A DNA stretch of 64,000 bases from Sipunculus nudus (taxonomy: Eukaryota; Annelida; Sipuncula; Golfingiida; Sipunculidae), in the NCBI GenBank assembly GCA_026874595.1, contig CM049315.1, positions 72,091,416 through 72,155,415 on the forward strand, written 5' to 3'. Of the stretch, positions 6,671 to 39,726 are shown in pieces. Each line of letters opens with the position of its first letter. The stretch's first letter is position 1. Made by a program: the position numbers and the translations under genes. The notes under the pieces are model-generated. The model searched no databases and was not told the DNA's origin. It worked only from the letters and a program-made list of their open reading frames with translations.

Positions 6671-6804
6671 TCATATATGCTATATCCAGGATAAGGGTTA
6701 CCCTAACCCTTCGGGCATAAAATACCCCCGTAAGTGTTTGCCCCTATTAATATATGCTATATCCGGGAAACGGGTTACCCTAACCCTTCGGGTATGAAAT
6801 ACTC

Positions 6805-8178
6805 CAGTAAGTGTATGTCACTATTATTGTATGCTTTATCTCAGAAACGGGTTACCCTAACCCTTCGGTCATGAAATACTCTAGTGTTTGTTACTATTAA
6901 TATATGCTATATCCAGGATACGGGTTACCAAACCACTTCGGTATGAAATACTCCAGTAAGTGTTTGTCACTATTAATATATGCAATATCCGAGATACGGG
7001 TTACCTAACCCTTCAGGCATGACTTATTCCTATAAGTGTTTGTCACTATTAATATATGCTATATCCAGGATACGGGTAACCCTAACCCTTCGGGCATGAA
7101 ATACTCCAATGAGTGTTTGTCGCTATTTATATATATGCTATATCTAGGATACGGGTTACCCTAACCCTTCGGGCATGAAATACTCCAGTAAGTGTTTGTC
7201 ACTTATAATATATGCAATATCCACAAAACGGGTAACCCTAACCCTTCGGGCAAGACATACCCCTTTAAGCGTTTGTTACTATTCATATATGCTCTATCCA
7301 GGATAAGGGTTCCCCAACCCTCGGGCGTGAATTACTCCTGTGTTTGTCACTATTCATTTATGCTATATCCATGATAAGGGTTACCCTAACCCTTCGGGCA
7401 TAAAATACCCCCGTAAGTGTTTGTCACTATTAATATATGCTATATCCTTGAAACGGGTTGCCCTAACCCTTCGAGTATGAAATACTCCAGTAAGTGTATG
7501 TCACTATTATTGTATGCTTTATCTCAGAAACGGGTTACCCTAACCCTTCGGTCATGAAATACTCTAGTAAGTGTTTGTTACTATTAATATATGCTATATC
7601 CAGGATACGGGTTACCAAACCACTTCGGTATGAAATACTCCAGTAAGTGTTTGTCACTATTAATATATGCAATATCCGAGATACGGGTTACCTAACCCTT
7701 CAGGCATGACTTATTCCTATAAGTGTTTGTCACTATTAATATATGCTATATCCAGGATACGGGTAACCCTAACCCTTCGGGCATGAAATACTCCAATGAG
7801 TGTTTGTCGCTATTTATATATATGCTATATCTAGGATACGGGTTACCCTAACCCTTCGGGCATGAAATACTCCAGTAAGTGTTTGTCACTTATAATATAT
7901 GCAATATCCACAAAACGGGTAACCCTAACCCTTCGGGCAAGACATACCCCTTTAAGCGTTTGTTACTATTCATATATGCTCTATCCAGGATAAGGGTTCC
8001 CCAACCCTCGGGCGTGAATTACTCCTGTGTTTGTCACTATTCATTTATGCTATATCCATGATAAGGGTTACCCTAACCCTTCGGGCATAAAATACCCCCG
8101 TAAGTGTTTGTCACTATTAATATATGCTATATCCTTGAAACGGGTTGCCCTAACCCTTCGAGTATGAAATACTCCAGT
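6805..8178 (+). repeat. recent 687-bp tandem duplication of nine monomers
   Basis: The stretch ending near 7,491 is repeated immediately afterwards at an offset of 687 bp. For example 7,192-7,374 and 7,879-8,061 translate identically. The only difference noticed is a 4-bp indel near 6,885/7,570. Near identity means this is the youngest event in the array, or possibly an assembly duplication. Confidence 0.85.
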
Positions 8179-9734
8179 CAGTGTGTATGTCACTATTATT
8201 GTATGCTAGATCTCAGATACAGGTGACCCTAACCCTTTGGGCATGAAATACTCCAGTAAGTGATTGTTACTATTAATATATGCTATATCCGGGAAACGGG
8301 TTACCCTGATCTTTCCGGCATGACATACCCCTTTAAATGTTTGTCAATATTAATATATTCTATATCCGGAGAACGGGTTACCCTAATCCTTCGAGCATGA
8401 TATACACCAGTAAGTGTTTGTCACTTATTATATGCTATACCCAAAATACGGGTTACCCGAACCCTTCGGGCATGACACACCCCTTTAAGTGTTTGTCACT
8501 ATAAATATATGGTATATCCAGGATACGGGTTAGGTTTACCCTCCGGGAATGAAATATTCCAGTAAATGTTTGTCCCTATTAATATATGCTATATCCGGGA
8601 TACGGGTTACCCTAACCCTTCAGGCATGACTTACTCCTATAAGTGTTTGTCGCTATTAATATATGCTATATCCAGGATACGGGACACTAACCCTTCAGAT
8701 ATGAAATACTCCAGTCAGTGTTTGTTACTATTAATATGTACTATATCCAGGATACAGGTTACCTTAACCGTTTTGGCATGAAAGACTCCACTAAGTGTGT
8801 GTCACTATAAATTTATGCTACTTAGTGTGTCACTATAAATTTATGCTATGTCCGAAGATATGTTACCCTAACCCTTTGGATATGATGGAAATACTCAAGT
8901 TAGTGCTTGTCAATATATGTTCTTTGCCATAACCCCTTGGCCATAAAATAAGCTTGGAAGTGTTTCTCACTATTAATATTTGCTACATCCGGGATACGGG
9001 TTACCCTAACCCTACAGGCATGAAATACTCCAGTAGGTGTTTCTCACTATTAATATATGCTATATCCCAGATACAGTTTACTCTAACCCTTCGGGTATGA
9101 AATACTCCAGTCTGTGTTTGTTATTATTAATATGTACTATATCTGAAGACTGGTTACTCTAACCCTTTGGATATGATGGAAATAATCCAGTAAATGCTTG
9201 ATACTATTAACTGTACTATACCTGGGATATGGGATACCCTAACCTTTTAGGCAGGAAATTCTCCAGGTAGGGTTTGTCACTGTTAATAAATGTTATATCC
9301 GAATACGGGTAACCCTAACCCTTCGGGCATGAAATACTGTAGTAAGCGTTAGACATAATTAGTATTTGCTGTATCTGGTATACAATTACCATAACCCATT
9401 TTCATGAAAAACTTCAGTAAGCGTATGTAACAATTAATCTATGTTATATCCAAGATACAGGTTACCCTAACTCTTTAGGCATGATATACTCAAGTAAGTG
9501 CATGTCACTTTTAATATATGCTTTAATCAGGATGCAGGTTACCCTAATCCTTTGGCATGAAATACTACTGTAAGTGTTGGTCACTGTTTTGAACTATCAA
9601 TATATGCTAAATCCGTATCCAGGATGTTTGTCACTATAAGTATATGCTATGTCCGAATCAGGTTACCCTAACCCTTCAGATATGAATGAAATATACCAGT
9701 GATTAATAAAAGTTATATTACTGGAAAAAAAAGG

Positions 9735-10808: not shown

Positions 10809-11571
10809 CTAAACTGAAGAAAGCTTGGGCGTCTTCAGCCAGATACTTATAGAGTTCCCATCACGTTTTACAGGCGGGATAAGTCTATGGCGACAAGCCT
10901 GTGCGGCGGTGACAGTTTCCCCAAACTGTAAGAGTTTTGTCACTTTGGTTGGGTAATGTGTAATAACGTCAGCCGTATACGGCATATTTGTGGATCCTGC
11001 ATTTATGGCCATAGGAACTGCTGGTGTGCACTGGTTAATCTCTGCTGGCATGTCATCCTCGAACAGGGCAAAATAGGACTCCACAAAATACCTTGCAACG
11101 TGAATGGCATGTCTGACGCTGGTTCCATCAATGACTGTGCACCACAATTGGTTTAACTCCTTCGTATCCTTATATCCATTAGGAAGTGGCTGGGCCATTT
11201 CTTGCGCTGTTGGGACCAGTTCTATATAAGGATTTGGCAGCTCCGGATACTCTTGGGAAAGGCTAGTGTCCTGGCTCCGATCATGATCGCTCATAGGTGG
11301 GGTTGATGACCCCTCTGCATCCACGTGAGAGGTTCCTGGACGAGGATCCTCTTGTCGTGCAGTGGCTTGGCTTTGAGAAGCACCAGGAAGACGCTCCGGA
11401 AGAGAGCACACAAACTTATCCCACTGTTGTTTCACCACATCAGAGTTATTTTCCGTTGACTCAGTAGCTGCGAATCTATTGACCATTGCCAATCCAGCAG
11501 CTTGGGATAAAATGTGGGATGCTAAAGCCAGTCTTCCAAGCATTCCTTTCATCTTGGACAAATATCCATGC
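10809..11571 (-). CDS. DUF3987-like terminal exon
   Basis: Exon of 763 bp after acceptor TTTTATTTCTAG, one base completing the split codon and then 253 codons plus TAG. It opens with HGYLSKMKGMLGRLALASHI, the conserved 'K-x-x-G-x-x-x-R-L-A' helix that follows the ATPase core in DUF3987 proteins. A low-complexity polar linker comes next (about residues 60-120, rich in S, P, Q, D). Then comes a helical segment with VRHAIHVARYFVES (about residues 165-178), matching the family's C-terminal helix. The last 50 residues (FGETVTAAQACRHRLIPPVK) look like a small winged-helix. Codon use and length make this the most solid exon of the gene. Confidence 0.65.
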
Positions 11572-14500
11572 CTAGAAATAAAAGATGCATGTAAGTCTTG
11601 ATCCCAGCACAACACAAGTAATGTAGACACATAATCACATAACATATCGACAAATAAATGGAATATGTGGCAAAATCAAAAATGAAACAGGTGGTCCATC
11701 TTTTTCAACACAAATGACCTTATGGATCAATGGGGTGGGGTATGAGGGGTGGGTGAGATCAACAAAGGGGTGTGGGGGTGTGGCGGGTGAATTGTGAAGG
11801 CCTGAGAAACATCACCTGGCAAACCAGGAGTGAAGAGATAAAATAACACATTGGTGAGCTAAAAGCAGGTTGCTGTACACTGTATATTAATTTCTTGATG
11901 TAAACATTTGACAAGGTGTTGTTAAAATGAGTGAAAAGTAGAATATTTGGGTAACAGGTTACAGGTTTCCAATGTTAACACAGAGGTGAAAATGCAGTGA
12001 AATTAAGGGATCCACAGTCCTGTCAAAAATAATTGCATGTTCAAATTAAGGCAAAATAAAAGGTACTGTTTATACTGTTTCAGAACATTCATAATCAAAT
12101 CTAATTGGGGTATACAAGTTAATCTCGAAAGTATGTTAGATTCTCGAATATAGTCTCTGCCTCCAAGAAATCACAGATTAATGATTAAATATTTTTCTAG
12201 TGAAGTCTTAATATATATTATATTTGAGTTTGTATCTTAAAAAATAAACACTAATGGCTTAATGTAACATGCTAAAACATGCTAAATGCTAACATGTATA
12301 TAGCAATGAATAGATGAATAAGTATAATAATATGCTTAAATAATAATATGACAACATGGCTGGGTGACAAATATCAAACAAATTTTAAGTAAAATTTATG
12401 GTTTGAATTGACAACATGGCTGGGTGACAAATATCAAACAAATGTTAAGTAAAATTTATGATTTGAATTGACAACATGGCTGGGTGACAAACCCATTGGC
12501 CAGAAAGCACATTATTACAACTTGTAGTAATAACAATAAGTATGCTCTATGGATCAGCAGATCCAGACTGTGGTGACATGAGAGGGTTTGATAAAAGAAT
12601 GAACAAAACCCTTACTTAAATCAGGACAAAGCTGTGGGGAAACAGGGTCAAAGGAGATGAATATGTCAATGTCAAAGGCCATGTCAAATGCCATCTTTCA
12701 ACCAGAGAAACAGCTGCAACTTGAAAGGCTATATAGACCTGTCTGTTCCTTGTCTTTGCTTGATAAATCTTAAATCCCAAAATGTCCCTGCCGTAGTAAA
12801 GAACTGTGGTCCTCACATGTTGCCATAACTGCATACACTCCTGGGACTTCATAACTGAAAAAAAAAAACATTGGGCACATGCCTATAGGTCTGGTGGCAG
12901 GACAACATCATGAAGTCATGAGGCTTTGAGCTCAGCCCTAGAAAGGCAACAGAAAAGACACAGAGCAACAAAAAATGTTAAAGGTTGCTTACCTGTCTCC
13001 ACACTCATAATATTCTGTTGCTGCTTGCAATGACAGTGTCATATTCTGCCCCCATAGCAGTACTGGCATCGTCACTGAGAGTATACTCTCTTGTCTCACG
13101 GTGTGTATCCATAATAATCTGCAAGAATACAGATTTGTGACAGAATGTATGTAAACATGAGCTATTAAGTATACAACCCAAAATTATGAATATTGGAATG
13201 ATCAATGTGAATTGAGAGTGAAAACAGTGAATGTACCATAAGGACCAGTTACTGTCACAGACAAGGTGGCATTAAATAATGCATGTTTTATAATGTCAAT
13301 CAAGACTACCTTGGCTTGTACTGCCACAACTGACGGCAACAAAGAAATAAGCTGGAAGAGTACAAAATACTATATCTACTGTACTGTAGCAAATATCCAT
13401 CAATAATGGTCTGTTAAACAAAGGACCAATGGGTCACAGCGCTCAGCTTTAGTTTGAAATTTTTGCAAATGCAAAATATTCTATTTTAATGTTTTTCATA
13501 TATATAAGCATATGAGAAGCCAAGAGGAAAGAAGCCCTCCTACTTGGTTATAGTTCAGTTCTAAATATATGATTGCAAACTAATACTCTGACAAGACTGT
13601 CATGAAGAAAAACAGTAAAAGTTTTGAGATACTGTGACACATATGAATAATTTACAAATGGACAGGCAAGTGGACAGAATGGACTAATACCTTTATTTCA
13701 CTTTCAAGGGAATAATGCATTTAAGTTAATATATAAGCCTATTATTTAAGCATATCCACTTTTTCCATTAAAATAGTTTTTATCTGATTAATTTTTTTTT
13801 TTACAAGTTTTATAAATCTATATTAAAAACTCTGAAAATATAAGTTAAAATATTAGAATTCTAATTTTCAATGATTATATATCTAGAGTGTAGCTCATAT
13901 TGGGTCCTATTATGCATACACATATTTTATCATTCTTAAATCACAAATGTTAAAACAGAATTTAACAAAACAAAATTCAACTTCTCAAGTAAGGAATCAC
14001 TTATCTGATGAACATCCACACTTACATAGCAATACACCACTTTGTGGACACAAATAAATGTGACCCTGGTGGTACAATACAAAATCTAAAACGTAGCAAA
14101 GCCTGGAATAAGAATGAATCAAATACAGAAAATTATAACTTTATGACTAGTTTATGCACCAGCTGGGGGAGGGGGGGGGGAGTGCAGGGCAGAAGGGAAG
14201 CCTGCTGGTAGTGGCCAAGCTGAGCCAATGCAAGCTCCCTGGGGTGGTTTACATACTGCAAGTGAAGGCTTGCTACTAGGTGGGCTAGATGTTAACAACA
14301 CTTGACATGGTGTATGGAAACTTGAATAAAAGCTACTCTTTTCAATCAATTCCGTTGAAATTTCAGATATTAAAAGATTAAATCCTTATGTATATATGCT
14401 GTTAAAAATTAAATCAACAGTGCTTACAGGGAAAACGTGCCATTGCCAAAGTTGGACAAAATTTAAGGTATTGATTTTTTGTTTATGCTAATAACTTGTA

Positions 14501-16128
14501 AAAATTTGAAAAAATTCAGATCTAATTTTGATAACTTTTTTATCTTGAATAAATAAAGTTTTATTCCTGAAAAAAAAGTCTCCAGCTTCTGCAATTCTCA
14601 TCTTTGGTGAGAATATATATTTCATGATTTTTTTAAAAAGTGCATTATGTTTGGGCCCATAAAGCAAAAATACGCAAGACCCACATAATTTCTGGCATGT
14701 GCATAGCGAATGAATAGAAAAATATGTATATTATATGAGATCAAAGTCAGATCAGTGGTGTTAATATTAGGCAGTGTAACAATGGGTTTTTAAGTTATTC
14801 ATTAATATCTCAAAGGATTTAAGTCCTAGTGACCAAATTCTTGGTATGATACAGGATCCTGGAGACATCTAACTGTATGCCAAATTTAAGGAACTTAGAG
14901 CTGAAGCTCGGGAGCTGAGCTCTAGCAAACTGCATAACACTTGCTTGATGTAAACAATATGTGACATGGTGCTTGAAAACTGGAATAAAATTTTTTGATC
15001 AATGGTTTCATATATTTGGTGTTAACAGTTGAAATGCAAACAAAAACAGGCTTTGAAAATTAAATCCACAGCAGTTACAGGAAAAAAACATGCCATGGTC
15101 AAAGTTGGGCATATTTTAAGGTATCAATTTTTTATTTTTGGTAATATTTAAAAAAATTTAAAAGATTTTGATCTAATTTTGGGTGTTCAATTTAATTTTG
15201 ATTGATAAAAGTAATATTAATGGAATAAAGTGCTTAGCTTTAACAAGTTTTGTGTTAAGTGATCAAATGTTTTTCCTGATTATTTACAAAATGCATTATG
15301 TTTGGGCCCATAAACTGTTTAAATCACATCTTATTTCTGGCATGTACATAGGAACAATATAGACGGTTATTTATGGTAAATATGAGGAAAAACAGATGAG
15401 TTGTTTTGATATTAGGCAGTCCTGAGGTGTGAAAATAGGTTTTTAATAAAAAATTAAGGTTTTTCCTTAATTTCTCAAAGTCGCAAAGACCCAGTTTTCA
15501 GCGTGGTAGGAGATTTTGGGGACATCTAACATTATGTTGAATTTTGGATTCCCAGGTCTTACGGTTTCAAAACATGCCACATCTACGGACGGAAGGACCG
15601 ACGGACGGTAACGGATGGACAACAGACAATGGGCCACAACTATAGCTCAGATAACTTATAGTCGGCTGAGCTAAAAATCATGGGATAAGATTAATACAAA
15701 CGTATAGAGTGACTAAAAACAGGATCATGGTTTCATGGATCATAAATAAAGTATTTAGGGGTATTGAATCCTACCCGATAGACATGCAGCAGCTCTGGCA
15801 CATGATCTGGCCCTTCTGCTCCCAATCCAGCCCACAAATTGACCAATGGAGGAGGTGCACACATAAGGAAACGATCCATGAGGCCATCATGGTTTTCCTC
15901 TGGTGCCAGGCGATTAATGATGAAGAGAGGCTGTATAAATCCTGTTAGATTGAGAGCTGTCGTGGCCATTTTTCCACTTGAACATTTGTAGCTACGGTTC
16001 CAGGAACCCCCTCCATTTAAAGTCAGCATAGTTTTCCGTTCACTATTGCCAGCATTGGCAGCCACGCTCAGATGATAATCAAGCTCATCTGACAAGATGA
16101 TCATTGAATGGTTGTTGTGGAGCATCAA
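10809..16128 (-). CDS. DUF3987-like ATPase/primase-helicase gene, three recognisable exons, one frameshift
   Basis: Gene-level entry. Exons in transcription order are 16,128-15,775, 13,118-12,993 and 11,571-10,809. Together they show the signature order of the DUF3987 family, which is best known from bacterial and mobile-element primase-helicase proteins: IILSDE (Walker-B-like), TGFIQP, GLMDRFL, then YTLSDDAS, then KMKGMLGRLALASHIL, and last a helical VARYFVES segment with a probable winged-helix tail. The N-terminal P-loop part was not found; it must lie in unrecognised upstream exons or be lost. The middle exon enters in phase 0 from the first exon but must leave in phase 2 to join the last exon, and an in-frame TGA appears near 13,007. 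A single-base insertion near 13,004-13,012 would explain both. The KDZ transposase gene starts head to head with it about 1.1 kb away, which suggests one two-gene transposon. A TTTATT (AATAAA on this strand) at 10,336-10,341 is a possible poly(A) signal. The family call rests on motif memory only. Confidence 0.55.
12350..12492. repeat. 60-bp tandem repeat, 2.4 copies
   Basis: The block GACAACATGGCTGGGTGACA starts at 12,350, 12,410 and 12,470, an exact 60-bp period. Full copies differ at only two positions. It lies in the last intron of the DUF3987-like gene. Confidence 0.95.
12616..12852 (-). other. possible extra exon in the DUF3987-like gene, doubtful
   Basis: A strong acceptor (eleven T then CAG) at about 12,855 is followed by frames open for 25-45 codons, one beginning at 12,852 with MKSQECMQLWQHV. 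None matches the family, the best donor (CAG|GTCTAT near 12,737) is weak, and splicing from 12,993 directly to 11,571 already gives a sensible join. Probably intronic. Confidence 0.2.
12993..13118 (-). CDS. DUF3987-like middle exon, frame-disrupted
   Basis: Exon of 126 bp between acceptor TATTCTTGCAG and donor CAG|GTAAGC. Read in phase 0 it gives REYTLSDDASTAMGAEYDTV, which fits the 'Y-x-L-S-x-x-A' helix that follows the RFL motif in DUF3987 proteins, but it meets TGA near 13,007. Read one base later, the 3' end gives EYYECGD and leaves two bases (AG) that complete the first codon of the next exon as Arg. So the 5' part is coding in one frame and the 3' part in another. One extra base near 13,004-13,012 is the simplest explanation. 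Confidence 0.5.
13119..14390. other. intronic sequence, no coding signal
   Basis: AT-rich intron of the minus-strand gene. It contains a G-run at 14,165-14,178 that creates a false proline-rich frame on the minus strand. I see nothing else in it. Confidence 0.6.
14391..14940 (+). mobile_element. partial, diverged copy of the interspersed repeat (copy C)
   Basis: It shares AAATTAAATCAACAG, TGCCATTGCCAAAGTTGG, TTTAAGGTAT, GCATTATGTTTGGGCCCATA and TTTCTGGCATG with the fuller copy that follows at 15,045-15,678. It lacks the GGAC run and the terminal hairpin. Confidence 0.65.
15045..15678 (+). mobile_element. interspersed repeat copy B, the longest copy
   Basis: About 630 bp in an intron of the minus-strand gene. 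It has all landmarks of copy A plus about 190 bp more on the 5' side (GCCATGGTCAAAGTTGGGCA, GATTTTGATCTAATTTTG). It ends with GGACGGAC units and TATAGCTCAGATAACTTATA followed by GTCGGCTGAGCTAAAA. No frame longer than about 30 codons, so it is non-autonomous. Confidence 0.75.
15775..16128 (-). CDS. DUF3987-like exon with SDE, GFIQP and GLMDRFL motifs
   Basis: Exon of 354 bp (118 codons, phase 0 at both ends). The acceptor is a T-rich stretch ending TTTACAG at 16,131-16,129 and the donor is CGG|GTAGGA at 15,774. The translation has, in order, a hydrophobic strand with IILSDE (about residues 10-15, Walker-B-like), a glycine/serine-rich NGGGSWNR (about 38-45), TGFIQP (about 60-65) and DGLMDRFL (about 80-87). 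These are the landmarks of the C-terminal half of DUF3987 ATPases. On the same strand the frame upstream (16,308-16,165) is also open, with TDASLVPSESRLFQLTNYMF, and could be joined only by an implausible 32-bp intron, so how the gene continues upstream is unresolved. Confidence 0.6.
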
Positions 16129-16308
16129 CTGTAAACACACAAAAATGCCTCTGTAAGGATAATGATTGCACATTACAAATACCTTGTAAACATGTAGTTT
16201 GTTAACTGGAACAGTCTTGATTCCGAGGGCACCAGAGAAGCATCAGTAGCCAAGGTTTTACAGAAGTGGGAACACAAGAGATGGACAATGCAATTCCATT
16301 TGTTCGAG

Positions 16309-17268
16309 TAGATAACCTACATGATGAATAATAAAATAGGGCAATCAGGCTTATGTAATGTCAAATGACATTTAATTGCTCAATTGTGTTTTGAGCTAGT
16401 AATCTTTATGGATATTAAAAAAAAGGCAATGGTGTAGAGAGGATCACACGAAAATGAGACATTGTCGAAATCTACAAGCAAAACAGACATTTGCAATGCT
16501 ACATGGAAAATATTTTGCGCAAAATGGCAGAGTCTACTAAAACACATCACGTCTAAGAAAATATGATCGAAAAGTCATTGTGCTCACCTGAAAGGGTTAA
16601 AAGTGAAAATTGGGAATATAAGCTATGGTGAAAACACGAGGTGGAAAGGGCTAAATGGGCAATGGATACATTTGACATAAAAATTTATTGCCAAAAATAG
16701 TTTGTCATCTGGACATGTTTCCTATTTGGTAACTGAAGGATTTATTATGTGTGAAATAAGGATTTACATTTTATCAAGATTACTGTAAAACTTTTACAAA
16801 ACTATTGACAATACAAAAAATATACACATAGGATCATGTAAATATATTGTAATCGAAGCAGGATGCTCCTATTTTTGTAGAAAATGTAAACAGTTTGCAT
16901 AATGTGCCCACACCACTGCATGCCTGTACAAATAGGCCATAGTGAGTTGGGGGGGGGGGGGGGGAGAGAGAACAATGATTGGATTTAACAACTATGACAA
17001 ACTGTTAGCAGTTCCACAATAGAAAGCAGTTGCAAAGGAATTTATACCATTGATCAACTGCAATGACCAAATGGCTGTGCAAAGGGGGCATGAGTAAAGT
17101 ACCGATCCCTACTTGTGATGATTTATACTTGTTTGTAAGAAATCTAAGGGGCTGTCTGTATGCCATTAAATCAATGAAGTAAATAAGAACTGCCAAAACA
17201 TGTTACAGTATATTCTGTTGTGCACAAAGAAATAATTTATACTGAATATAGTTTCTCTCTGATTGCAG
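16309..17268. promoter_or_regulatory. intergenic region between divergent transposon genes (putative bidirectional promoter)
   Basis: About 1 kb separates the first recognised exons of the DUF3987-like gene (minus) and the KDZ gene (plus). First exons, promoters and possibly the missing N-terminal coding parts of both genes should lie here, but I could not identify a start exon. A 16-base G-run lies at 16,949-16,964. The promoter role is inferred only from the gene arrangement. Confidence 0.3.
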
Positions 17269-18221
17269 ATCATAACCATTATACAGATCTCAAGTTCTCC
17301 TGGACAACAATGCCAAAGTACGTAAATCCAATACCCTGGCTGAACTGCCTGTGCTATGCAGCAAACCACTACCCACTGCATACCCCAAAAAGGTGGAAAC
17401 TTGTAGAAGAATTCATCCAAGCACATGTGGACAAGGAAGGACAACCAGCCAACAACGTCTTTGTGACACTAGGATCAGGGAAAAACACTGTGCACTTTGA
17501 ATGCAAAGCTTCTCATTGTAGGGAAGTTCACTTAATCTGCCAGAAAACAGCAGTTAGTGTGAGTAAGCAAGATTTAGATAAATTTGCAAGTGTGTTCTTT
17601 CAAGCTAGTGCAAACAAATATGCACATAAATCTATTATCCTGCTTCCACACAGTTCATCTTGTCCAGAGTGTAAGAATACTTTACAAATTGACTACCGTC
17701 CAAACTTTCCACAAATATTTACCAAGAGAGGAATGATAAGGGGAGTTGCATACCATGGCAGGTGCTCCAGTTGCAAAATATCACAGATGTACTCTTATTA
17801 CACAAGGGATAATGACAAAGGCGTGCCTGCTTGTAAGATGTTCAGTGCTTGCAGTCTGGATCAGTATATCATGTTAACCCGTGACACAGTATTTGAAGCA
17901 TGCTTGCTAGAACAATTTCATGCATCCTTGACAGTGAGTGGGTGTTCATTTGGAGCTATAGCAGATGCATATAATGCAGAAAACCGATGTTGTGATATGA
18001 GTACTTGTGTGCCTGGCCATAAGTGCAACCAAACCCCCAACCCAGGTGAAAACACCCTGCACCATGACCGACTGGAGGATGCTTGGTTTTTGTGGAGACT
18101 GCTGCTGCAGAAGGGACCAAGGGATGTGCTACGAGTGTCACAGCAGAAAGAAGGCCATCGTCCAGAATTGGAGGAACTGTGCAAGGAAGCATATGACAGT
18201 TTACTGCAGAAAACAAACCAT
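17269..18221 (+). CDS. KDZ gene exon with CxC5-like cysteine cluster
   Basis: Exon of 953 bp from acceptor TCTCTCTGATTGCAG to donor CAT|GTAAGT. An ATG at 17,310 (MPKYVNPIPWLNCLCY) could be the start, but the exon is open to its 5' splice site with one base of a split codon, so an upstream exon is possible. Counted from that Met, there is an N-terminal FHECK/CREVHLIC region (about residues 63-77), then SSSCPECKNTL (C118, C121), YHGRCSSCK (C152, C155), YSYYTRDN, and a C-terminal Cys/His-rich part (CCDMSTCVPGHKC, 227-239) ending in an acidic helix. The paired CxxC motifs followed by a Tyr-rich strand are what the CxC5 family shows. The likely role is zinc-dependent DNA or protein binding. Confidence 0.8.
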
Positions 18222-19521
18222 GTAAGTAATTCTTAGAAATTCCCGAAATAAAAAGAAAGGCATGCCAAGGGAGTGCATGCTTTGGTAGGCTTTACATACA
18301 TGTAGCTTGTATTTCTATTTGCATCCATTTTAAAGTTTCTAATGGTTTAAATTCTATTATTGCATGAGAACCTGTAAAATCAAGGTACAATAGGATCTTT
18401 AAGATTTAAATGATTAGGGAAATAAACCAACAAAACCGTACAATATCTGGTTCAGCCTTTGTTTCCATTCAACATGTGTCTCAGCCTGTGAGTCGACTGA
18501 TGCATGAGCCTGTTTCAAAAAGACAGATAAAATTGATAATAAGGTTATGTCAGAGGCAATCTCAGTAGATACGGCATGTTAGTCCTGAGGGTTCAATATT
18601 CACAGTAATATACATTGGCAATTACAGCAAAATAAAAAGCTTAATTTGTGAATATAACGAGACTACCACAGTAAACTGTGTCTCTGGAAATGGTGCGACT
18701 ATTCTTTTGTATGAATTTTGAAGTATTGACAGCTTTCCAATCACATTCCCAAAAGAAATGTCCCATTTGTACAACTGGAAAAGTCGAGCCCTTTTTCAGA
18801 TGCATAAACATTTCCTATTGGTGTGCTCAAACTGTCCCAAGTTCCAATTCAATTGCACAATCCACATCAAATTGATTGGAAAGAAGCAGAAGTCGCTTTA
18901 CAGGCGTTATCAGATGATCCCAATGTTAAACATTAGTAGAATGAGGATAAAATCACAGAAGATGGAGGGTGTCCGCCTGGCAATCAATTCCTAATTATCC
19001 TCTTTCCAAATATCTGCTCACCAAATATTCAGGTGCCCAGATATCCGTGTGTGAGCGTTACAGTCGAAAATGACCCTGCACGGTTCATATAAGCACCGGT
19101 CATGGAAAAAGAAGATTATGGAAGACATCAAGGAACATTTAAATACAGGAGCTACCGGTTTTTGAAGTTAATTTAATTTTCATGAATCCCAAACTAGTCT
19201 CATTTAATAACTATATTTTCTCATATAACGATGTATATTTCGAGGGAGTGAGAATGCATGACTGTATGAGAGTTAGAGTGAAGGAGAAATAATGACACGG
19301 AAATAATGCATATTGAATCCCAGAACTGTCTTATTTAAGTACTTTATTTTGTCCGAAGATATATATGACGAGAGAGAGAGAGAATGAATGAATGAATGAA
19401 TGAGAGATAGAGAGAGAAAAGAGAAATAATGAGAGAGACGGAAAGGGAGTGATATGTTAATTTTTAATTGATCCCAGACTTGTCTCATTTAATAACATTA
19501 TTTTGTTCGATAACGATCTAC

Positions 19522-19608
<87 letters not shown>

Positions 19609-22600
19609 GGGAAGACTGGATTAATGATTAATGAATGAATGAGAGGGAGAAAGAAAGAATGAGAAGAGAGTTATTCAATGTTGATGGTTCTTATTTAATA
19701 ACTTTTCCGATAACGATATATATGGAGAGAAAGAATAAATGAATGAATGAGAGAGAAAGAGAAAGAAAGGATGGATAAATGAAGGGATGAGAGATGGAAT
19801 GAGAGAGATAGAAAGAAATAATGAGAATAAGAATGGGAGAGAGACGGACAGAGATCGTTAATTAATTTTCATGGTTCCTATGACCTGTTTCATTTAATAA
19901 TTTTGCTTTGCTGACAACGGTACATCTTATATTGCAATTATTGCATTATAAGACTCATAAACAGATGGAGAGAGAAGATAAAGGAGAGATAAAATAAAGG
20001 AAGGAGAAAGAAAGAAAGAAAGAATAAATGAATGAATTTATTGATTAATAAATGAGTTTAATTTTCATGAATCCCAGACTTGTCTCATTTAATCGCTTTA
20101 TTTTGTCCAATAACGATGTATATGACGAGAGAAAAAAAGAATGAATGAATGAATGAATGAGAAAGAGAAAGAATGAGAGATAGAATGAGAGATAGAATGA
20201 GAGATATAATGAGAGAGAGACGGAAAGAGGGTTAAATTAATTATAATGGATCCCAGACTTGCTCACTTAATAACATTTTGTCCGAGAAAGTTATATGTAA
20301 GTAGTGCAATATTGTATAATTCATTTCATATTCACAAAGAGAGAAGAGAAAAGAGAGAGAATGAAAAAATGCAGATGTTGTAATGTTTATTTAGATATTT
20401 ACGGGGGTACTTGCCTTACTGATTAAATCTTGAAGACACATGATCAAGGGCGTTTTAATGTTTGTATTACACTTAGTGAGAACCCTTTCACGGTGGAGCA
20501 GTTTTCCACTGCACAAAACAGCTTAATTATATCACGCAGCCGGGGTTTCACCAGGTTAACATGATGTAAACATCCAAGCTATCATTTTAAGGTAAACAGA
20601 TATTGTCAAGTAATATGTATTATCTCTTATTATCACCTTTATGACAATGAATTTAACACCAGTTTTTTTGTCCGTCCGTCAACATATATGTGTCATGAAT
20701 GATTCAAAACAATCGCTCGTGGTACCTTAATAAAAACCTGCCAGAATGAATATAAAACTGACACAAAAACGTAAGATTAATAATAATTTAATAAAAGCAG
20801 TGTTTTAACTAAGGCTGGGATGGCCTCACGCATATCCCTTTTCTTTATAGTGGGCACATCACACATGCGAAAGAAAGGGATGCAGAGAAGGATACATCAC
20901 TATAGATGGGAATGCCAAACTGCGCCGTGCTGTCTGTGCTGCACCCAAGTGCTCTGTTGAGATGGGACCAAACATGCCAAAGGTGTTCAATTCCTGCCCT
21001 AATTCACCAGTGATGGGATGCCAAAATCGTGCACCTTCCAAGTATTGTAGAGGACATCAGGAATATGAAAGTGCAGGTAATTGTTTCACAAAATTGTGAA
21101 ATTACAGAGAACTCTGTGTCAAGATTTGTTCCAAAAAAAATCACCAAGGCATTATATATAAATAATTGCTCAGTTTCAGCTGCAATAAGGATGGAAATAA
21201 TACAATGTGTGTGGTGTATCATAAAGCATTTTAAACAAATTAATGAAACATTACAGTATGAAGCTGACATATCCTAAATGGGAACAATGGAACACTCAAG
21301 GGACTGGAATATTTGCCCCTATTAGTGAGTTGCCCCGTTTGGAGGATATTGGCATGTTGTGTTAAATCATCAATGAATGTTTCTGATATCCTTTCTTTTT
21401 ATTATGTTTACGCTTCATATGAACTACATATATTTTATTTCAATCATAGCTGAAATATTGTTAAACCACCAATTCCCCAGGATGGCCTTTGTGCCTTGGC
21501 ATTTGTCTCGCACCCAATATACAAGGATCAGTGGGCAAATGGATTTTAATTAAAGCTTCCAAACAATTTACAAAAACTACACGTCGAAATAATTTTTCAA
21601 CTATTAAAAAAGAGGAGAAGGAAGAACTGGTGAGGAAATTTAATCAGGCACACACAACAAACATCCATTGACCCTGTTGCCTCCAAAATCATGCATAACA
21701 CAAGTTTAAAAGTTAAAACATATAATTATATAATTAAAAATCAATTACAATGAGGTTGATGATAATGACTGCATCAAAGATGAAAAAGCTGTATCAATCT
21801 CTTAGTTGCTAAAATAGAATGAAATTAATGTTAATGATTTCATCAAAGATGAGAAAATTTAATTTAAATCCTAAATTCTACCCCAAGATAACAGTGAATA
21901 CCCCATAATTGTTTATTGTTCCAAATTCAAAAGTAAAACTACACCTAAGCATTAACAGTCACCCACATGTGTTCCCTTACCACCTAACTAATAAGTGTTT
22001 TAAGTCTGAAAGAAACACCCGTATTTGTGAAGGTTGAATCTGAAAAACTATACTAAATAGAAAACCTATTTACTGACTAAAAATACTTACTAAGTTCCCC
22101 TTAATTGGATACACAGAGATCCCCCTCACAGTAATGCTAAAAGCTAAGCTCCATTTAAGTCTAAGTAAAAATGTTAATTCCCACAAAAAAAATCATTCAT
22201 AACTAAACGACTTAAATTAGTATACATTAAGCATGAATATAACCTTCTTGGCACTCGCCAAACCGCCCTCAATTACAGTTTACCAAATCACTGAAAGTTG
22301 CTTAAACACCAGTACATATCAACTGTTGTAATTTATAAAAAGCTGAAAGGTTTATGAGAGAGAAAAAGAAAGGGGGGGAGGAATTTCGCATGTAACCTCA
22401 CAATGGTTCACCGTGTTACACATGTCCTGGGGTTGAACCACTTTGACCAAAACAGGTCCTACAAGGTCAAATCAAAGGTAGTGCAATGCCTGTTTGCCTT
22501 AAAGATTCATAATAAGTACTACATACGTAGGTGGGACAGTGAGGATAGTGAGTTCCCCGCTATACTGAGTTTACATTAAACATAAGATAGTGGCAATTTT

Positions 22601-25600
22601 GTAGGACAGGATTTATTGTCTGCATTAGTGAGATGTCTGCCTTACTGAGTTGTCCCCAGGTAGGAGTTTCACTGTACCAAATATTCCAGATGAAAGCATA
22701 CATGTATCATAATTGTAGTTAGTGAGACCTGAGATCGGTCAATTTCAAACTGTAACTGGTTCAAAACTTGCTAATATAATGCGTTTTTACCACCACCAGA
22801 TGAACAGAGCACTAATGACCAACAGAATCCAAAGAACACATCTGAACAAGGAGAACCATCACGTCCGTCCACAAAAGGGAAATCAAAGGCAACTGAGGCA
22901 AAAACAGGCATGACTCTTAGAACCCACTGTAAAAGTACTGGTAGGTAAAATACAAGAAGGGAAATGTTATATTATGAAGTGCAAGCCAAATTGCCAGACT
23001 TGCCCATTGTAGAATTAGGACCTTAGGTATATTACAGTGAGGGTATATATTTTATAATGGACCTACTGCTGGTACATAGAGGTTTCACATTCTGTTATTT
23101 ATCAGAAGATTGAAGTGCTGTTACTATGACTCTGGTGATAAAACCAATACAAAATAATGTAAAATCCTCCATCAGAACTCTTCAATTACTGCATAAACCA
23201 AACAATATACACCTTGAGGTGTGACTGCAATGGGACCATATAAGACCCCACTTAATATAGTTCCCAGCCCAGATGTAGACAGTAAATGATGCATAAATGG
23301 TTTACAAGGGGTGAAGTGTTCCAGTGAATAATAACATTAGCTGGTGAAATTGAACTCTCCATGCAACAATAAATCAGCCACAGACAACACACGTATTTAA
23401 AAGGAGTTGCAAAGTTACTTTAATGTATGGGAACACATAATATTGTAAATAATATTGCCAACTAAAAAAACCAATATACTGTAGCATTGAAATGAAAAAA
23501 GCACTTTAGTCACACAGTGTCATCTGTTGATGAATAAAGAAATAAAAAAAGGGGGCCCGATTGTATCTGCAATTTCTTTTTAGCCCCTAGGCTGATGGGC
23601 TATTGATATCACCCAAGCTGTCCTTCCTTCTGTCTGTCTGGCATCTGTTTACTTTTACCTTGTGAGCAGGATATCTCTAAATGGATTCACCGTAGGAATC
23701 TTTTTTTCTTTTGTGGAATGTTTGTGGACAAAATCTCTGTCAAATTTGAAGATGGGTGACCTTGACCCAATTTCCTACGTTTACAGCTGATTATGGAAAA
23801 ACTCTTAGAATATTATTTCTCAGGAACCATCAGGTGGATTTTCACAAAGCTTACTATGGTCATTTGGACTGATGGTTTGTACCTGCTGCAAAAGTTATGC
23901 ATTGCCACCTACAATTTCTGATTTTTTATGAATTTTTCCCGGATTTTTCAACTTTGGCTTTGTGAGCGGGATATCTCTTAAAGGAATCTCCGTATAAATG
24001 TTATTTCTTTGGTGAACATGTATATCTAAAAAACTCTGCCAAGTTTAAAGATAGGCGACCTTGACCTATTTTTCTATGTTTTACAGCTGATTATAGACAC
24101 TTATTAGCTTTTTTCTCAGGAAGCATTCAGTGGATTTTCACAAAACTAACTATGATCACTGGGACTATTGGTTTTTACCTGCTGGACAAGTTTGGGCCGC
24201 CTCCTACAATTTCTCAATTTTACTGAAATTTATCAGATTTTTCAACTTTGGCCCTGTGAGCAAAATTTCTCCAAAGGTATTCAACACAGGAACTTTATTT
24301 TTTTCAGTGCTGTTGCATGTTTACAAAATCTTGGTCATGTTCAAAGATGGGTGACCCTGACCTACTTTCAAGAGTACAGACTTAGAATAGAATAAAACTT
24401 CGGGGCTTATTTTTCAGGAAGCATTTGGTGGATTATTATGAAACATGGTACATACTTTTCCAGGTTAAATTTATAACTGAGACATGTACAGTTATAGGTC
24501 CCTGTGAGAACAATTATTTTGTACTTGTTAATATAACCACTTATAAACACTGTTCTTTTTGCTGAGGGCTTTTGTCAGCTTTTGGTTGATATTCTAGTTT
24601 TCCATAGCAGACAATATAGTAGCGTAAGAAATAGATACCAAGATGATATAGATCAAAGAATCATATGGGAGAGGAGCCAAATAGCAGGTTTGGCACATTA
24701 TTGAAAATGACCACCAAACATTATCAGGCACAGTGTTAAATAGAGGAACTTGTATAGGTCAGGAACATAATCTACTGATTAATGATGGTAGTAACATTTA
24801 TTACACCAAGCCATAAGTGGCACAGTTGTGCTCAGTTTCAATTGTAAAGGGCTATCATTATCCGAAAAACACCGCTAGTCAAAGCTTATTGTACCATTAA
24901 CAATAAAGAAGGTAAAATGCAAAACAGTTGGGTCCCTTTATAACAATTGTAGGAAACACACCGTACTGAAGAGCCATTAGCAACAGTGTCACATGATAGG
25001 TGTTACAACCAATGTACTATTGTGGTGTATGAACATGACAGTTTTGACCTTACCATAGTTAGGATACAGGGATACAATTCATGCACAATACACACACCAA
25101 AACATAACATTAATGCTATTACCCAAAAAGTATTGACAACACTGGTATGTATAGTACAAGGTAATAAAATGTCAAAAGTATAGTTGAGATTGGAATGAAG
25201 TTTTGAAATCACCAAGAATAAAATACACACACTTGTTAAACTGTTCAACCATTTAACCAATCCTGATATTATTTTAACAATAATAACATTAAAATAAAGC
25301 AGAGCATACGACAGATACCAACATGCATTCATCAGTCAGTTAACTGTTACTGGACTTGGACAACAGACTATGAGGGTAAGTTTGATGTAGACAACATCCA
25401 TGCATATAAAACAACATACCAGGTCCCCATCCTTTTTATTATAGGCATAATAACCTTCCAAATATAAGCAAAATTTTGCATGAACTCCTGAGGAAAAAAT
25501 TTAAGGAGTTAACATAAGTTGTTTGTTATGGCATGTGTCATATATTTTCACCAAGTTTGTAGATGGTCCATATATGAGACTTTTCAGACTGATCATTTCC

Positions 25601-28600
25601 ACTGCATTTCACCTGGCACTCATAATACCTTCTCACATAGATCTATATTACATATCTTTAACTTATTCTTATTTAGTGTACACAAGACGAGAAGACAGTG
25701 AAGCTTATATGGCTAATAAAACTTATTGTAAAATACAATACAAAACTGACAAGCAACAACAGGAAATTATGAGCTGGACATACATGTGTGTGTTGTCTGG
25801 AGGGGGGGTGGATTCATTGTGGAATATGGCATATATGGGTGTTTTGATTACTAACATAAATAGAAACTGGGGATGCTAATACATGGTTTCCATTTCCAGA
25901 GACAGATGAGCAAAGTACTGTTACTTCAAGGGGCTCCATAAAGACACAACATGATGGACATCCAGCAGCCGTGACAAGCAAAGCAAGACCAAAAACTACA
26001 ATGAACAATGCAACAAATAGTGACTGCACACCCTGTGAAGGTAAACAAGGGTTATATTGATAACATTACTATTTTAAGATGTAATGCTGGGTTCGTCCCT
26101 TGTTGAATTGGGACATGGTGGTAAGAAAACAACCTACCCAATGCCAAACAAATCCTGATCCCTATTTATCAAAAGATAGTGCAGAATACTTGACAAAAAC
26201 AACACAGATGAGAAGTCATACCACATATGTCAAAAAAGAGATGCCATTACAAAAATCTGAATAAAATTGTACCAAGGAAGCAGGTCAAGCAACAGAGGTG
26301 AACCACCACTGGCCAATGCATAGTTGATTGATATGTCCCCAACTAGACAAAAGCAAAGATATGGGTGGGAGGACATTTCCAATTTCAAATTGGGTCATGT
26401 TTAGAATTAGGAGAGATTGTTGACGTTGACGAAGCCATCTCAAGGGAAATTAGAAAACTTCTTAAATGTCTCCTGCTTTATTGCACAATTTGATCCAAAA
26501 ATTGGTTGACTGAATATCTTGGAAAGAGTTTTTATGTAATGCAAATCAATGGCGTAACCTTTTATTCATTACATGATTTGTGCTGAATATACTCCCACCT
26601 TACCACTGGACAATACAATGAGCTTTGTAAGTCAGGACTTATGGACAGTTTACTTTAAAGTATTCATATTTATCAGTATAGATTATTGGAAGGTGCTTAT
26701 TTAAAGGCATCACAACCTGACCCTGACTTTGACCTTGAATACTGCATATTTTTATACACACAGAATCAGATAATATTTCAATGAAATAAACAAATACATG
26801 ACTTTTCCAAAATTAAAAGTTGTTCAAAGTTCATTAATAACATTGTAGTCTGCAGGAGACATTAGCGCCACCATTGGTCCTTTTACCTCAGCAAACTATG
26901 AACCGACTGAGCAGAAGTTGTAGTCCATTGTCTGTCGTCCATCCGCCTGTCCGTCCGTCTTTTTGAAGACGTGGCACATTTTGAAACCGTAAGACCTAGG
27001 AATTGTAATTTCCTCATAATGTTAGATGCCCCCAAGATCTCCTACCAAACCAAAAACTAGGTCTTTGTGACTTTGTTCCTTTGAATATTTAAACAAAAAC
27101 CTCAATTTTGTATTAAAAACCTATTTTCACACTTCAGGTCTGCCTAATATTCAAACCACTCGTTTGTTTTTCCTCATATTTTTCTTAAATATTCCCCTAT
27201 TTAGTTCCTCTGTACATGGCAGAAATTAGGTCTGTATAATATAATTGTATCCGCCAAACAAAGTTTTGCGGATACTATGTTTTTGACCGGGTTCCGCCGC
27301 CGCCCCCGCCGTGTCCATTTCCGGAGAACTCCTCTGAGACTACTGGATGGATTTTTCCGAAACTTACACAATTATTGGGTCACATGTGAACTGGTGCCTA
27401 ACCATGTGACCTTGACCTCTGACGTTTCCGCTCTGCCCTGCGTCCATTTGTGCATCTGTTTCCACACATAAACCCACATATCTCGGGAACCAATTGACCA
27501 TTCAGAAAAAAATTCTGCACAAGTATAGGTGTACCATTTGTTTGTCCATTTGTCGTAGGTAAAATATTTTGAGAATGGTTTAATCATATGGTCTTCAATG
27601 AGCCAAGTACAACCGTCTCAGGAAGTTTTCTCATCCACCAGTCAATGGACCATGTGAATAGTAGAAAGAATTACCTTTTTCAAGACAGAATCACCATATA
27701 TGCCCAATTGTGTGGAAACAGAAGGCCAACCCCACTATATAGATCCCATACATAGCAGTTATATATACAGCAGATGTGCCTTATGAGGTGCATATTTCCC
27801 ATAAAAGGACTAATAATGAAATATGTATAAGACTTTATTGTATAAGGAAAATATCTATGGCAAGGGTATATGTACTCGTGATCCATGAAATACTGAAGGG
27901 TGATAACAACCATGTCTGTGTACTAACAAACAAGTGCAGATGAGAGCAGCAGCATGAGTGTTCCTGACTGGCAGGACTATAATAGCTGAATAATATATGT
28001 ATATGCCGTATAACAGAGACTGAATGTTGATAGTGCAAAACGATAGTGAAAAGCAAAAGCACAGTTAAAGTGTTCTATTATGTCAAGCAATAAAATATCA
28101 ACGTGTGTTTGCAAATGCATGCACAATTGTGAATGAATAGTTAGGGATAAGTAAACCAAACCTAAGGTAACAATATGATAATGAAATACAAATTTGGTTT
28201 TATTTGTAGGTAAAGGGCAAGGGATTGAGAAGAAATTGAGAATTACCTTGTGTGACATGATGTTGAAAACCACGATACAGGAACTGTCAACCAAAGATAT
28301 GCCATTGCCCGAGGATTCTACAGTTATGACAGGATGCAAAGCCGGGAAAAAATTGACCACATTTTACAACACAACAGCAGGTGTGCTTGCTTTTGTCAAA
28401 CCATGTGGGATCATAGTGAGTTTGAAGGAGATGTATACATGTGAGTCCAGCAGCCAAGTATTTCATGCTCTGCTGTCACTGATGGAACAATTTCCAGACA
28501 CTTTTAGATACATTGGATATGACCGAGCCTGTGAGCTGCATCCCTTCTTGACTAAACTAGCCAAAAATGGTAATCCTGGAGCACAATTGCTCATCCAAAA

Positions 28601-28866
28601 CTGATTTTCTTGTGGATATTTTCCATGTAACCAAGCATGTCAAAGCAACATGCATGCCCTTGGATGGGCCCCTTTGTAGGTATCACCCTCATTTAGACCG
28701 TTTTGTGGAAATACGTGACACAAATACAGAAAGCGCCGAACAAGCATTTAGTTGGTTAAATCGGTTCAAACGCATTGTCAGAAAAATGACAGTTCATAAG
28801 TTCAAATGGTTGTTGCAAGAGGCAGTACATGCTAGGAACACCCATGTTCAATCCACATTGGGGTGA
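17269..28866 (+). CDS. KDZ-type transposase with CxC5/CxC6 cysteine clusters, five exons, one frameshift
   Basis: Gene-level entry. Exons: 17,269-18,221, 20,851-21,076, 22,800-22,940, 25,900-26,040 and 28,210-28,866. Every junction is GT-AG and the phases agree (0, 1, 1, 1). In order the product has a CxC5-like cysteine cluster, a CxC6-like cluster, a hydrophilic linker encoded by two twin 141-bp exons, and a KDZ transposase core with KPCGIIVSLKEMYTCES, GYDRACELHPFL, DIFHVTKHVKATC, CRYHPHLDRF and NTESAEQAFSWLNRFKRI. KDZ elements are DNA transposons with an RNase-H-like transposase; CxC clusters are zinc-binding-like domains associated with them. Counting from the ATG at 17,310, the product would be about 690 residues. 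The frame shifts by one base near 28,597-28,605, so this copy is probably inactive unless the indel is an assembly error. The 5' exon or exons before 17,269 were not identified. AATAAA occurs at 29,020 and 29,226. Confidence 0.85.
18222..20850 (+). other. intron 1 of the KDZ gene
   Basis: Begins GTAAGT and ends in a pyrimidine-rich TTTTCTTTATAG. It holds a simple-sequence-rich tandem repeat (19,160-20,350) and a short open stretch near 18,690-18,870 with a CPIC motif that I could not join to any exon. Confidence 0.7.
19160..20350 (+). repeat. ~140-215-bp tandem repeat with GA/GAAT microsatellite tails
   Basis: About seven copies of a core, TTCATGAATCCCAGACTTGT then CTCATTTAATAACTTTATTT then TGTCCGATAACGATGTATAT, each followed by variable (GA)n, (GAAT)n and (TA)n runs. 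Core starts are near 19,166, 19,305, 19,455, 19,670, 19,860, 20,055 and 20,235, so spacing varies with the microsatellite length. (TA)n is at 19,523-19,572. Confidence 0.85.
20851..21076 (+). CDS. KDZ gene exon with CxC6-like cysteine cluster
   Basis: Exon of 226 bp, entering in phase 0 and leaving in phase 1 (GCA G|GTAATT). The first codon after the acceptor is TGG. The translation reads CERKGCREGYITIDGN, then RRAVCAAPKC, FNSCPNSPVMGC and APSKYCRGHQEYE. Spaced cysteines with a central I-D-G-N and a terminal YCxxH match the CxC6 cluster that follows CxC5 in KDZ proteins. In the shadow frame the sequence just before the exon has a stop, so the splice site is needed and decides the exon start. 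Confidence 0.85.
21077..22799 (+). other. intron 2 of the KDZ gene
   Basis: AT-rich, opening GTAATT and closing CCACCAG. No exon fitting the phase was found. A short frame at 21,489-21,671 is a chance opening. Confidence 0.6.
22800..22940 (+). CDS. KDZ gene linker exon 1 (141 bp)
   Basis: Exon of 47 codons between acceptor TTTTACCACCACCAG and donor ACTG|GTAGGT, phase 1 at both ends. It encodes a charged, unstructured linker beginning DEQSTNDQQNPKNTSEQGEP and rich in K, S, T and Q. A symmetric exon like this can be skipped without a frame change. It shares length, phase and the DEQST start with the exon at 25,900. Confidence 0.7.
23640..24480 (+). repeat. ~290-bp tandem repeat, about three copies, in KDZ intron 3
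   Basis: Units begin near 23,655, 23,950 and 24,245. Each contains CTTTGTGAGC(A/G)GGATATCTCT, AAACTCTGCCAAGTTTAAAGAT, GACCTTGACC, TTTTACAGCTGATTATAG, TCTCAGGAAGCAT and GTGGATTTTCACAAA. Copies are about 75-85% alike by eye. The frames at 24,130-24,395 are inside this repeat and are not coding. Such units are a common interspersed repeat type in mollusc genomes, but I cannot name the family. Confidence 0.8.
25900..26040 (+). CDS. KDZ gene linker exon 2 (141 bp)
   Basis: Exon of 47 codons between acceptor GGTTTCCATTTCCAG and donor GAAG|GTAAAC, phase 1 at both ends. It encodes ETDEQSTVTSRGS, a polar linker, and ends NSDCTPCEG. Like the 22,800 exon it is 141 bp, symmetric and starts with DEQST, so the two probably arose by exon duplication. 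The frame before the acceptor is not conserved with it. Confidence 0.7.
26885..27238 (-). mobile_element. interspersed repeat copy D, inverted
   Basis: Reverse complement of the copies at 9,735 and 15,230. In plus orientation it starts with the hairpin side (CTCAGCAAACTATGAACC), then GTCCGTCCGTC, TTTTGAAACCGTAAGACCT, CCAAGATCTCCTACC and GGCAGAAATTAGGTCTGTATAA. It lies in the last intron of the KDZ gene. Confidence 0.75.
27247..27420 (+). repeat. repeat starting with a GTATCCGC...GCGGATAC hairpin
   Basis: GTATCCGCCAAAC, a short loop and TTTTGCGGATAC form a perfect 8-bp stem at 27,247-27,275. It is followed by a GC-rich CGCCGCCGCCCCCGCCGTG and TGTGACCTTGACCTCTGACG. The abrupt change in GC content suggests a separate inserted element abutting the inverted repeat copy to its left. 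Confidence 0.5.
28210..28866 (+). CDS. KDZ transposase core exon, frameshifted
   Basis: Terminal exon after acceptor TTTTATTTGTAG, completing GGT from the previous exon. The first frame runs from 28,210 to a TGA at 28,602 with TGCKAGKKLTTFYNTTAG, KPCGIIVSLKEMYTCES and GYDRACELHPFLTKLAKNG. Homology resumes one base later with TDFLVDIFHVTKH, ATCMPLDGPLCRYHPHL, NTESAEQAFSWLN and VRKMTVHKF, ending in TGA at 28,864. The Asp of YDRAC and the Glu of NTESAEQ fit the second and third acidic residues of the RNase-H-like core. I could not place the first Asp with certainty. An extra A in a run of four (28,597-28,600) is the simplest cause of the shift. Confidence 0.85.
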
Positions 28867-35774: not shown

Positions 35775-37255
35775 TATTTCGCAGGTGTCTTAGCTACCGT
35801 GCACATTGCGCTTTGCTGTCGCTAGTTAATATGGCCAGTAAACCCTGCTACTGCGCAGGTCAATGCGACTACTAATTCCTTACGCGCCTAGTGCAAAGCT
35901 TGTTGCAGGCCTCTCCGGTCGACCTATGGTTACAAAGATTGGACTGAAACTATAGCATCAAAATTTTCGATCGCAATAGATAGCCTCCCTGAGGTTCTCG
36001 CTACCGCGCATATCTGATTTGATACCGCGCAGATTGCGCATTGCAATCGCAGCTAAAAATGGTCGATGCCACTTGCTACCGCGCATATACATGTACTTGC
36101 TACTTTGCGACAGTTAATTGCTCCCGCGCATATTGCTTTGAATGGTCGTGTCCGAGCGACCCCTGGCAGCAAATACTTGCAACACATTTACAATAGCAGA
36201 ATTTGCGATCGCAAATTCAGTTCCCATGGTAGCAGGCAACAACAACGTCCTACCACGCTGGTCTGTTTGCTACCGCGCACATTGCGCATTGCGATCGCAG
36301 CTGAATATGACCCATGGCATTTGCTAACGCGCACATCTGTTTGCTACTTTGCGACAGTTAATTGCTACCGCGCATATTGCTTTAAGTGGTCGTGTCCGAG
36401 CGACCTCTGACAGTAAAGACATGCACTACGTTAATAGTCGCAGAATTTGCGATCGCAAAGACATAGACCCCATGCATAGGAGCTGAAAGCAACTTGCTAC
36501 TGCTACCGCGCATATTGCTTTGAGTGGTCGTGTCCAAACGACCTCTGGCAGTAAAGACTTGCACTACGTTAATAGTCGCAGAATTTGCGATCGCAAAGAC
36601 ATAGACCCCATGCATAGGAGCTGAAAGCAACTTGCTACCGCGCAGGTCTGTTTGCTTGCGCGCACATTGCGATCGCAGCTTAATATGGTCCATGGCCTTT
36701 GCTAACGCGCACATCTGTTTGTTACTTTGCGACAGTTAACTGCTACCGCGCATATTGCTTTGACTGGTCGTGTCCGAGCGACCTCTGACGGTGAAGACTT
36801 GCACTACGTTAATAGTAGCAGAATTTTGCGATCGCAAAGACATAGCCCCCATGCATAGGAGCTGAAAGCAACTTGCTACCGCGCAGGTCGTTTGTTTGCG
36901 ATCGCAAAGACATAGCCCCCATGCATAGGAGCTGAAAGCAACTTGCTACCGCGCAGGTCGTTTGCTACCGCGCACAATGCGCATTGCGATGACAGCCATT
37001 TGCTCCCGCGCAGTTCTGATTTGCTACCGCGCAGTTTGCGCGTATGAGGCGGTTTGTGTCTGATGGTAGCAAGTCCAGTTGCAGCTCATTGCGCGATGTG
37101 GCGAGCAAAGCGCAAGGGTAGCAAATGCTACTGTGCGACTGCTATTTGCTACCGCGCACTTTGCGCTCAATAGCCTTTGAGCGCATAATAGTAGCAAGAT
37201 GAGTGGATGCTGAGTGCGCGTTGTGCCGGGCTCTGCGCAATGGTAGCAAAGAATC
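35775..37255. repeat. GC-rich complex repeat with CTACCGCGCA and GCGATCGC motifs
   Basis: A 1.5-kb island much richer in GC than its surroundings. The short motif GCTACCGCGCA (or GCGCA variants) recurs more than fifteen times and the palindrome GCGATCGC at least eight times. A longer unit, CATATTGCTTTGAGTGGTCG then TGTCCGAGCGACCTCTG, lies near 36,128, 36,366, 36,504 and 36,743, giving alternating spacings of about 238 and 139 bp. A 66-bp segment ending at about 36,892 is directly duplicated. Frames up to 114 codons result from the repeats. Confidence 0.9.
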
Positions 37256-39637: not shown

Positions 39638-39723
39638 CCAGGAGGGACTTTACTCGAGTGTCACTCCGGATTGACAGACAAAATGAAAAAAAAAAACATG
39701 GGGGTTTATTTCCCCGTTTTACA

Positions 39724-39726
<3 letters not shown>

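Follow-up and report, generated by a model that had tools for sequence, protein, structure and literature searches.

A probable decayed giant KDZ-superfamily transposon of about 51 kb in Sipunculus nudus, likely with a captured or accessory DUF3987 gene

Can a transposase gene and a predicted helicase gene that lie back to back at one locus of Sipunculus nudus belong to the same mobile element, and if so, do they work as partners? The locus lies in a stretch of 64,000 nucleotides (C10:72091416-72155415; hereafter the window). The original prediction, made from the letters of this stretch, paired a plus-strand KDZ transposase with a minus-strand DUF3987-like ATPase in a single transposon. That both genes lie inside one delimited element is supported by the analysis described here. 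The locus is probably best read as a single old insertion of a decayed giant KDZ-superfamily transposon of ~51.2 kb, in which DUF3987, a predicted helicase gene, is captured or accessory. As read, both genes look broken in the window copy, which would thus not be a working two-gene unit.

The element spans window positions -13934 to 37296, well past both limits of the interval first proposed for it (10809..28866). Its right end is fixed where homology to a sister copy at C9, whose identity to the window is 96-98% from position 17100 onwards, abruptly stops, and is therefore set independently of the terminal-repeat search. The left end, 14 kb outside the window, is the reverse complement of the right end, recurring once. 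The inverted repeat common to both ends agrees at 22 of 23 bases, and the left-end match to its 19-mer core has one mismatch, against 4-6 in all 60 of 60 Markov-shuffled left regions. Both ends are directly abutted by GGACTCAC, an 8-bp target-site duplication; counting both strands, 94 kb of sequence hold three occurrences of the 8-mer, two of them at the element ends. The duplication can be taken as 7-8 bp, and when read as 7 bp it leaves the termini CA..TG. Inverted ends and matching duplication enclose both genes, and on this point the original prediction is supported. The features are collected in the table below.

Table. Features of the element in window coordinates (negative positions lie to the left of the window)
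Feature	Position	Strand	Remarks
Left target-site duplication GGACTCAC	-13942 to -13935 (C10:72077473-72077480)		outside window
77-bp tandem array inside element	1..9585	+	starts ~7.5 kb left of window
DUF3987 last coding exon found	10809..11571	-	KMKGMLGRLA and C-terminal part; stop 10809-10811; splice acceptor read
DUF3987 short exon	12993..13118	-	donor GTAAGC; frame changes inside
DUF3987 core exon	15775..16128	-	SDE ... GFIQP ... GLMDRFL; Pfam PF13148, tblastn
Possible 33-nt upstream DUF3987 exon	16183..16215	-	weak inference from phase and splice sites only
KDZ exon with CxC5 cysteine cluster	17310..18221	+	Pfam PF18718; 57% identical to C12 exon
KDZ conserved internal exon	20851..21063	+	73% identical to C12; codon pattern; splice borders approximate
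KDZ catalytic part, first stretch (YIGYDRACELHPF)	28209..28601	+	66% identical to C12; codon pattern
KDZ catalytic part, second stretch (NTESAEQAFSWLNRF)	28603..28854	+	PF18758 21.3 bits; frame-shifted relative to first stretch
Right terminus (...AAAAACCGACAGTTCCCCGCATATATG) with GC-rich tandem repeats next to it (subterminal)	36013..37296
Right target-site duplication GGACTCAC	37297..37304

The terminal sequence of the KDZ element ends, GCGGGGAACTGTCGGTTT, is also found at C9, C12 and C12b with 0-2 mismatches, and the left end of the window element aligns with the C12 end at 80% over 89 columns. Several observations on the ends count against the preferred reading. The C12 end lies downstream of its KDZ gene, yet resembles the window's left end, and the C12b end lies upstream of KDZ, yet resembles the window's right end; both are unexplained. 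A search for the left end of the C12 copy and for the second end of the C12b copy found neither, and the window element is the only copy delimited at both ends (n = 1). Terminal-motif matches with 4-5 mismatches (C9 55955542, C17 52869394, C12 49151925, 49165312 and 49195029) were set aside as weak, those at C17 52869394 and C12 49151925 falling within matching internal sequence. Outside the element, one copy of a 1.8 kb direct repeat lies on each side, at -29999 to -28215 and 37936-39725, the two being 96.7% identical.

The setting is repeat-rich, with a GC content of 31-46% in 2-kb steps across the window. Long tandem arrays extend toward both element ends, the one at the right being GC-rich. 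The array of 77-bp units totals 17 kb, and between it and the left terminus (-13934) lie arrays of ~101/138-bp units. A short piece of the 77-bp unit is also present to the right of the KDZ gene, at 29.8-30.4 kb. An Rfam scan of the window gave no matches.

The identity of the plus-strand gene as a KDZ transposase, proposed at the outset, is upheld. Window positions 17187-18233 (plus strand) match CxC5 (PF18718) with 29.4 bits against a cut-off of 26.9. The last plus-strand exon stays below the KDZ cut-off of 26.6 (PF18758), while its near-identical C9 sister exceeds it with 38.7 bits. The predicted CxC6 cluster had no match in the pieces scanned with Pfam, a scan that covered sequence outside introns, and neither did the first catalytic stretch when searched alone. 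Alignment with C12 suggests a probable start at the ATG near 17310. The catalytic part carries a frameshift between 28601 and 28603, a point through which the C9 sister exon is open. Over 592 codons, the window and C12 exons differ at 154, 119 and 329 first, second and third codon positions, with 194 silent and 209 replacing changes; the excess at third positions points to past purifying selection on the KDZ gene. Between window and C9, 18 codons have changed, 3 silently and 15 with replacement, which gives no sign of constraint since these two copies parted, small as the numbers are.

The minus-strand gene likewise proved to be what the original prediction had named. Window positions 15736-16242 (minus strand) match DUF3987 (PF13148) with 34.5 bits (cut-off 27, E 1.7e-8), and a model joining exons 16128-15775, 13118-12993 and 11571-10809, with an X placed at the frame change, reaches 49.3 bits over profile positions 135-333 of 364. 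The exon phases match across the joins provided that the frame change in the middle exon is read through. Searched alone, the last exon has no DUF3987 match in Pfam; it matches within the joined model. Two candidate readings were left out of the model: an open frame on the minus strand at 12.6-12.9 kb, which is not needed to keep the exons on either side of it in phase, and an alternative frame for the exon at 16.2-16.3 kb, whose phase misfits the next exon. The two genes had been said to start head to head: the divergent order holds, with the KDZ ATG ~1.2 kb from the 5'-most firm DUF3987 exon, which begins at 16128. A DUF3987 start at that place is not demonstrable, as the pieces scanned gave no match to the N-terminal part of the profile (positions 1-134).

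It is in this N-terminal part that the Walker A P-loop of a DUF3987 ATPase is expected. No G-x4-GK[S/T] motif occurs on either strand in window positions 0-40 kb, and a relaxed pattern gave no plausible match at 10-30 kb, where a split motif would escape it. The test is weak because the same kind of pattern misses one of the two bacterial relatives examined: in the first, AESGTGKS lies at residue 306, ahead of its aligned part (from 436), and the second matches no such pattern. A 5' exon with a split P-loop could therefore have been missed. No primase domain was found in the pieces scanned.

An independent tblastn search with a 183-residue query from the minus-strand gene returned four cyanobacterial plasmid records (E 8e-4 to 0.3), three of them annotated as DUF3987; the best, an Allocoleopsis plasmid protein, is 28% identical over 98% of the query (E 8e-4). 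A blastp comparison with one cyanobacterial DUF3987 protein gave 26% identity over 188 columns. Pattern searches for relatives of the core exon, which reach close relatives only in the case of bacterial and archaeal genomes, confirmed none of 146 matches there and none of three in viral contigs; no relative was confirmed in phages either. The best PDB sequence (E 0.058) was judged a chance match, and NCBIfam gave nothing above a cut-off.

How often do the two genes travel together? Across the genome (1.43 Gb, 153 contigs), PF18758 has at least nine matches at at least eight loci, the window copy not being among these. In a set of 35 own-genome loci (294,919 bases, partly overlapping), a single-sequence query with the DUF3987 core exon found it at none, while queries with the window KDZ exons recovered matches from these loci at C9, C12, C17 and C12b. 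The core exon was seen at none of six further KDZ loci in the flanks examined. At C12 these came to 50 kb, of which ~19 kb lay upstream; at C5 and C16 they reached 10 kb upstream, and at C12b and C17 they extended ~22 and 16 kb, respectively, upstream of the exons detected. Two more loci, C11 and C13, were covered over 3-5 kb. Single-sequence queries of this kind also miss the more divergent KDZ genes of C5, C16, C11 and C13, so a divergent DUF3987 at those loci would be missed too. The KDZ loci themselves vary. C5:32280938-32282659 holds a different KDZ subfamily with an open frame of 574 residues, and a copy at C16 is 98.5% identical to it over 3 kb. At C17:52841001-52873430, a KDZ internal exon recurs in three near-identical units ~6.46 kb apart, and a 15 kb stretch of C12 that holds the CxC5 exon is either absent from C17 or inserted at C12.

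Beside the same repeat array as in the window, the C9 copy carries a DUF3987 tail of about the last 49 codons, which indicates that DUF3987 was resident before the two copies parted. It matches window positions 9902-10955 at 97.6-98.0% DNA identity, and its tail is itself broken in frame. The C9 copy is rearranged by a 32.4 kb tandem duplication (99.8-99.9%, about 55981670-56042000), and a 10.2 kb palindrome (98.7%) at C9:55984845-55995058 disrupts the sister element. This rearrangement, with a left end that is not placed, counts against the preferred reading.

Other accounts of the locus deserve consideration. Two unrelated neighbouring gene remnants, with the terminal repeats and duplication there by coincidence, would fit the degenerate look of both genes and the many repeats of the region. 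This is very improbable: the right end is set by an independent copy, the inverted repeat goes beyond the shuffled control, and two of just three occurrences of the abutting 8-mer in 94 kb are at the ends. DUF3987 might instead be part of a different mobile element nested in the KDZ element. Neither C9 nor C12 has a counterpart to the core of the DUF3987 block (~10.96-17.1 kb), and dispersed repeats sit in its introns; against this, no inverted-repeat pair flanks the block among the 25 longest of 36 pairs, and the C9 match breaks at 10955, inside an exon, as expected of a rearrangement and not of an element end. Nesting is unlikely.

Also unlikely is an ancestral two-gene transposon in which a DUF3987 helicase or ATPase was needed for, or helped, the KDZ transposase, the window copy being a decayed member. 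The enclosure of both genes by one pair of ends, their divergent arrangement and the tail common to window and C9 are all in keeping with this idea, as is the prediction of DUF3987 as a helicase of mobile-element replication (PMC5862659, as far as available). At C12, however, where the matched KDZ exons are open, the 50 kb surrounding the gene did not yield the core exon, and neither did the flanks examined at C9, C5, C16, C12b and C17. The mechanism first envisaged, in which transposition would depend on an ATPase partner, gained no support: no P-loop was recognised in the window copy by the weak test above, an exon changes frame, and the core exon was found at none of the six further KDZ loci. 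Capture would be a simpler reading than partnership, judging from absence at few loci with one query sequence, and it has parallels in the available parts of the literature: TET/JBP genes have been captured by KDZ elements of fungi (PMC12730594), and an F-box domain is present in a Zisupton isoform of a fish (PMC12062965).

If the locus is a decayed KDZ transposon with a captured or accessory gene, its transposase would have bound the terminal repeats, excised the element and joined it at a new site, where a staggered cut would have left the GGACTCAC duplication; this cut-and-paste route is inferred from the duplication and from the domain of the transposase. DUF3987 was most likely carried along with it, a helicase-type gene already resident in the element before the window and C9 copies separated. 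A helper role in transposition is possible. Bolder, and improbable on present evidence, is the proposal that a giant-KDZ lineage acquired the bacterial-type helicase as a divergent second gene that aided the movement or copying of elements of at least 50 kb; if true, the KDZ superfamily could transpose with helicase help and not just as a stand-alone transposase. A delimited KDZ element of 51 kb is large for a DNA transposon, and is notable because the efficiency of DNA transposition drops above ~6 kb of cargo, according to the accessible part of a review (PMC6431247). With its ends and duplication as a guide, sister copies can be retrieved, which makes the link between large cargo and a helicase partner directly testable.

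Compared with known systems, the element is both familiar and unusual. A literature search of mostly non-subscription papers, with Repbase outside it, found no report of DUF3987 in a eukaryotic transposon, and the term is absent from a KDZ paper (PMC12730594). The minus-strand gene shares the motif order SDE, GFIQP, GLMDRFL, K.KG.LGRLA with DUF3987 proteins of bacterial mobile elements. In the accessible text of one study, DUF3987 is among the profiles by which the primase of PICMI phage satellites is recognised; deleting this primase reduces the number of circular copies (PMC10803314). Unlike its bacterial counterparts, the window gene is spliced, has no N-terminal part that could be found, and sits inside a eukaryotic DNA transposon. 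With Kyakuja, Dileera and Zisupton, as far as the available descriptions go, the element shares a KDZ transposase, CxC5, many exons and a 7-8 bp duplication, this being 7 bp in Kyakuja and 8 bp in a Dileera family (PMC12730594); it differs from KDZ transposons in its size of ~51 kb, its long subterminal tandem arrays and the DUF3987 gene aboard. Kyakuja has CA..TG termini, like the window element under a 7-bp duplication, and reportedly lacks inverted repeats (PMC12730594, section 3.2.1), whereas the window element has them. Nematode Zisupton copies are described with inverted repeats and no detected duplication in the part of the source available (PMC9297572). In size class and in carrying non-transposase genes, the element resembles the giant transposons Polinton and Teratorn, as far as the accessible review text goes (PMC6431247), and also Starship, and is set apart from them by its KDZ-type transposase.
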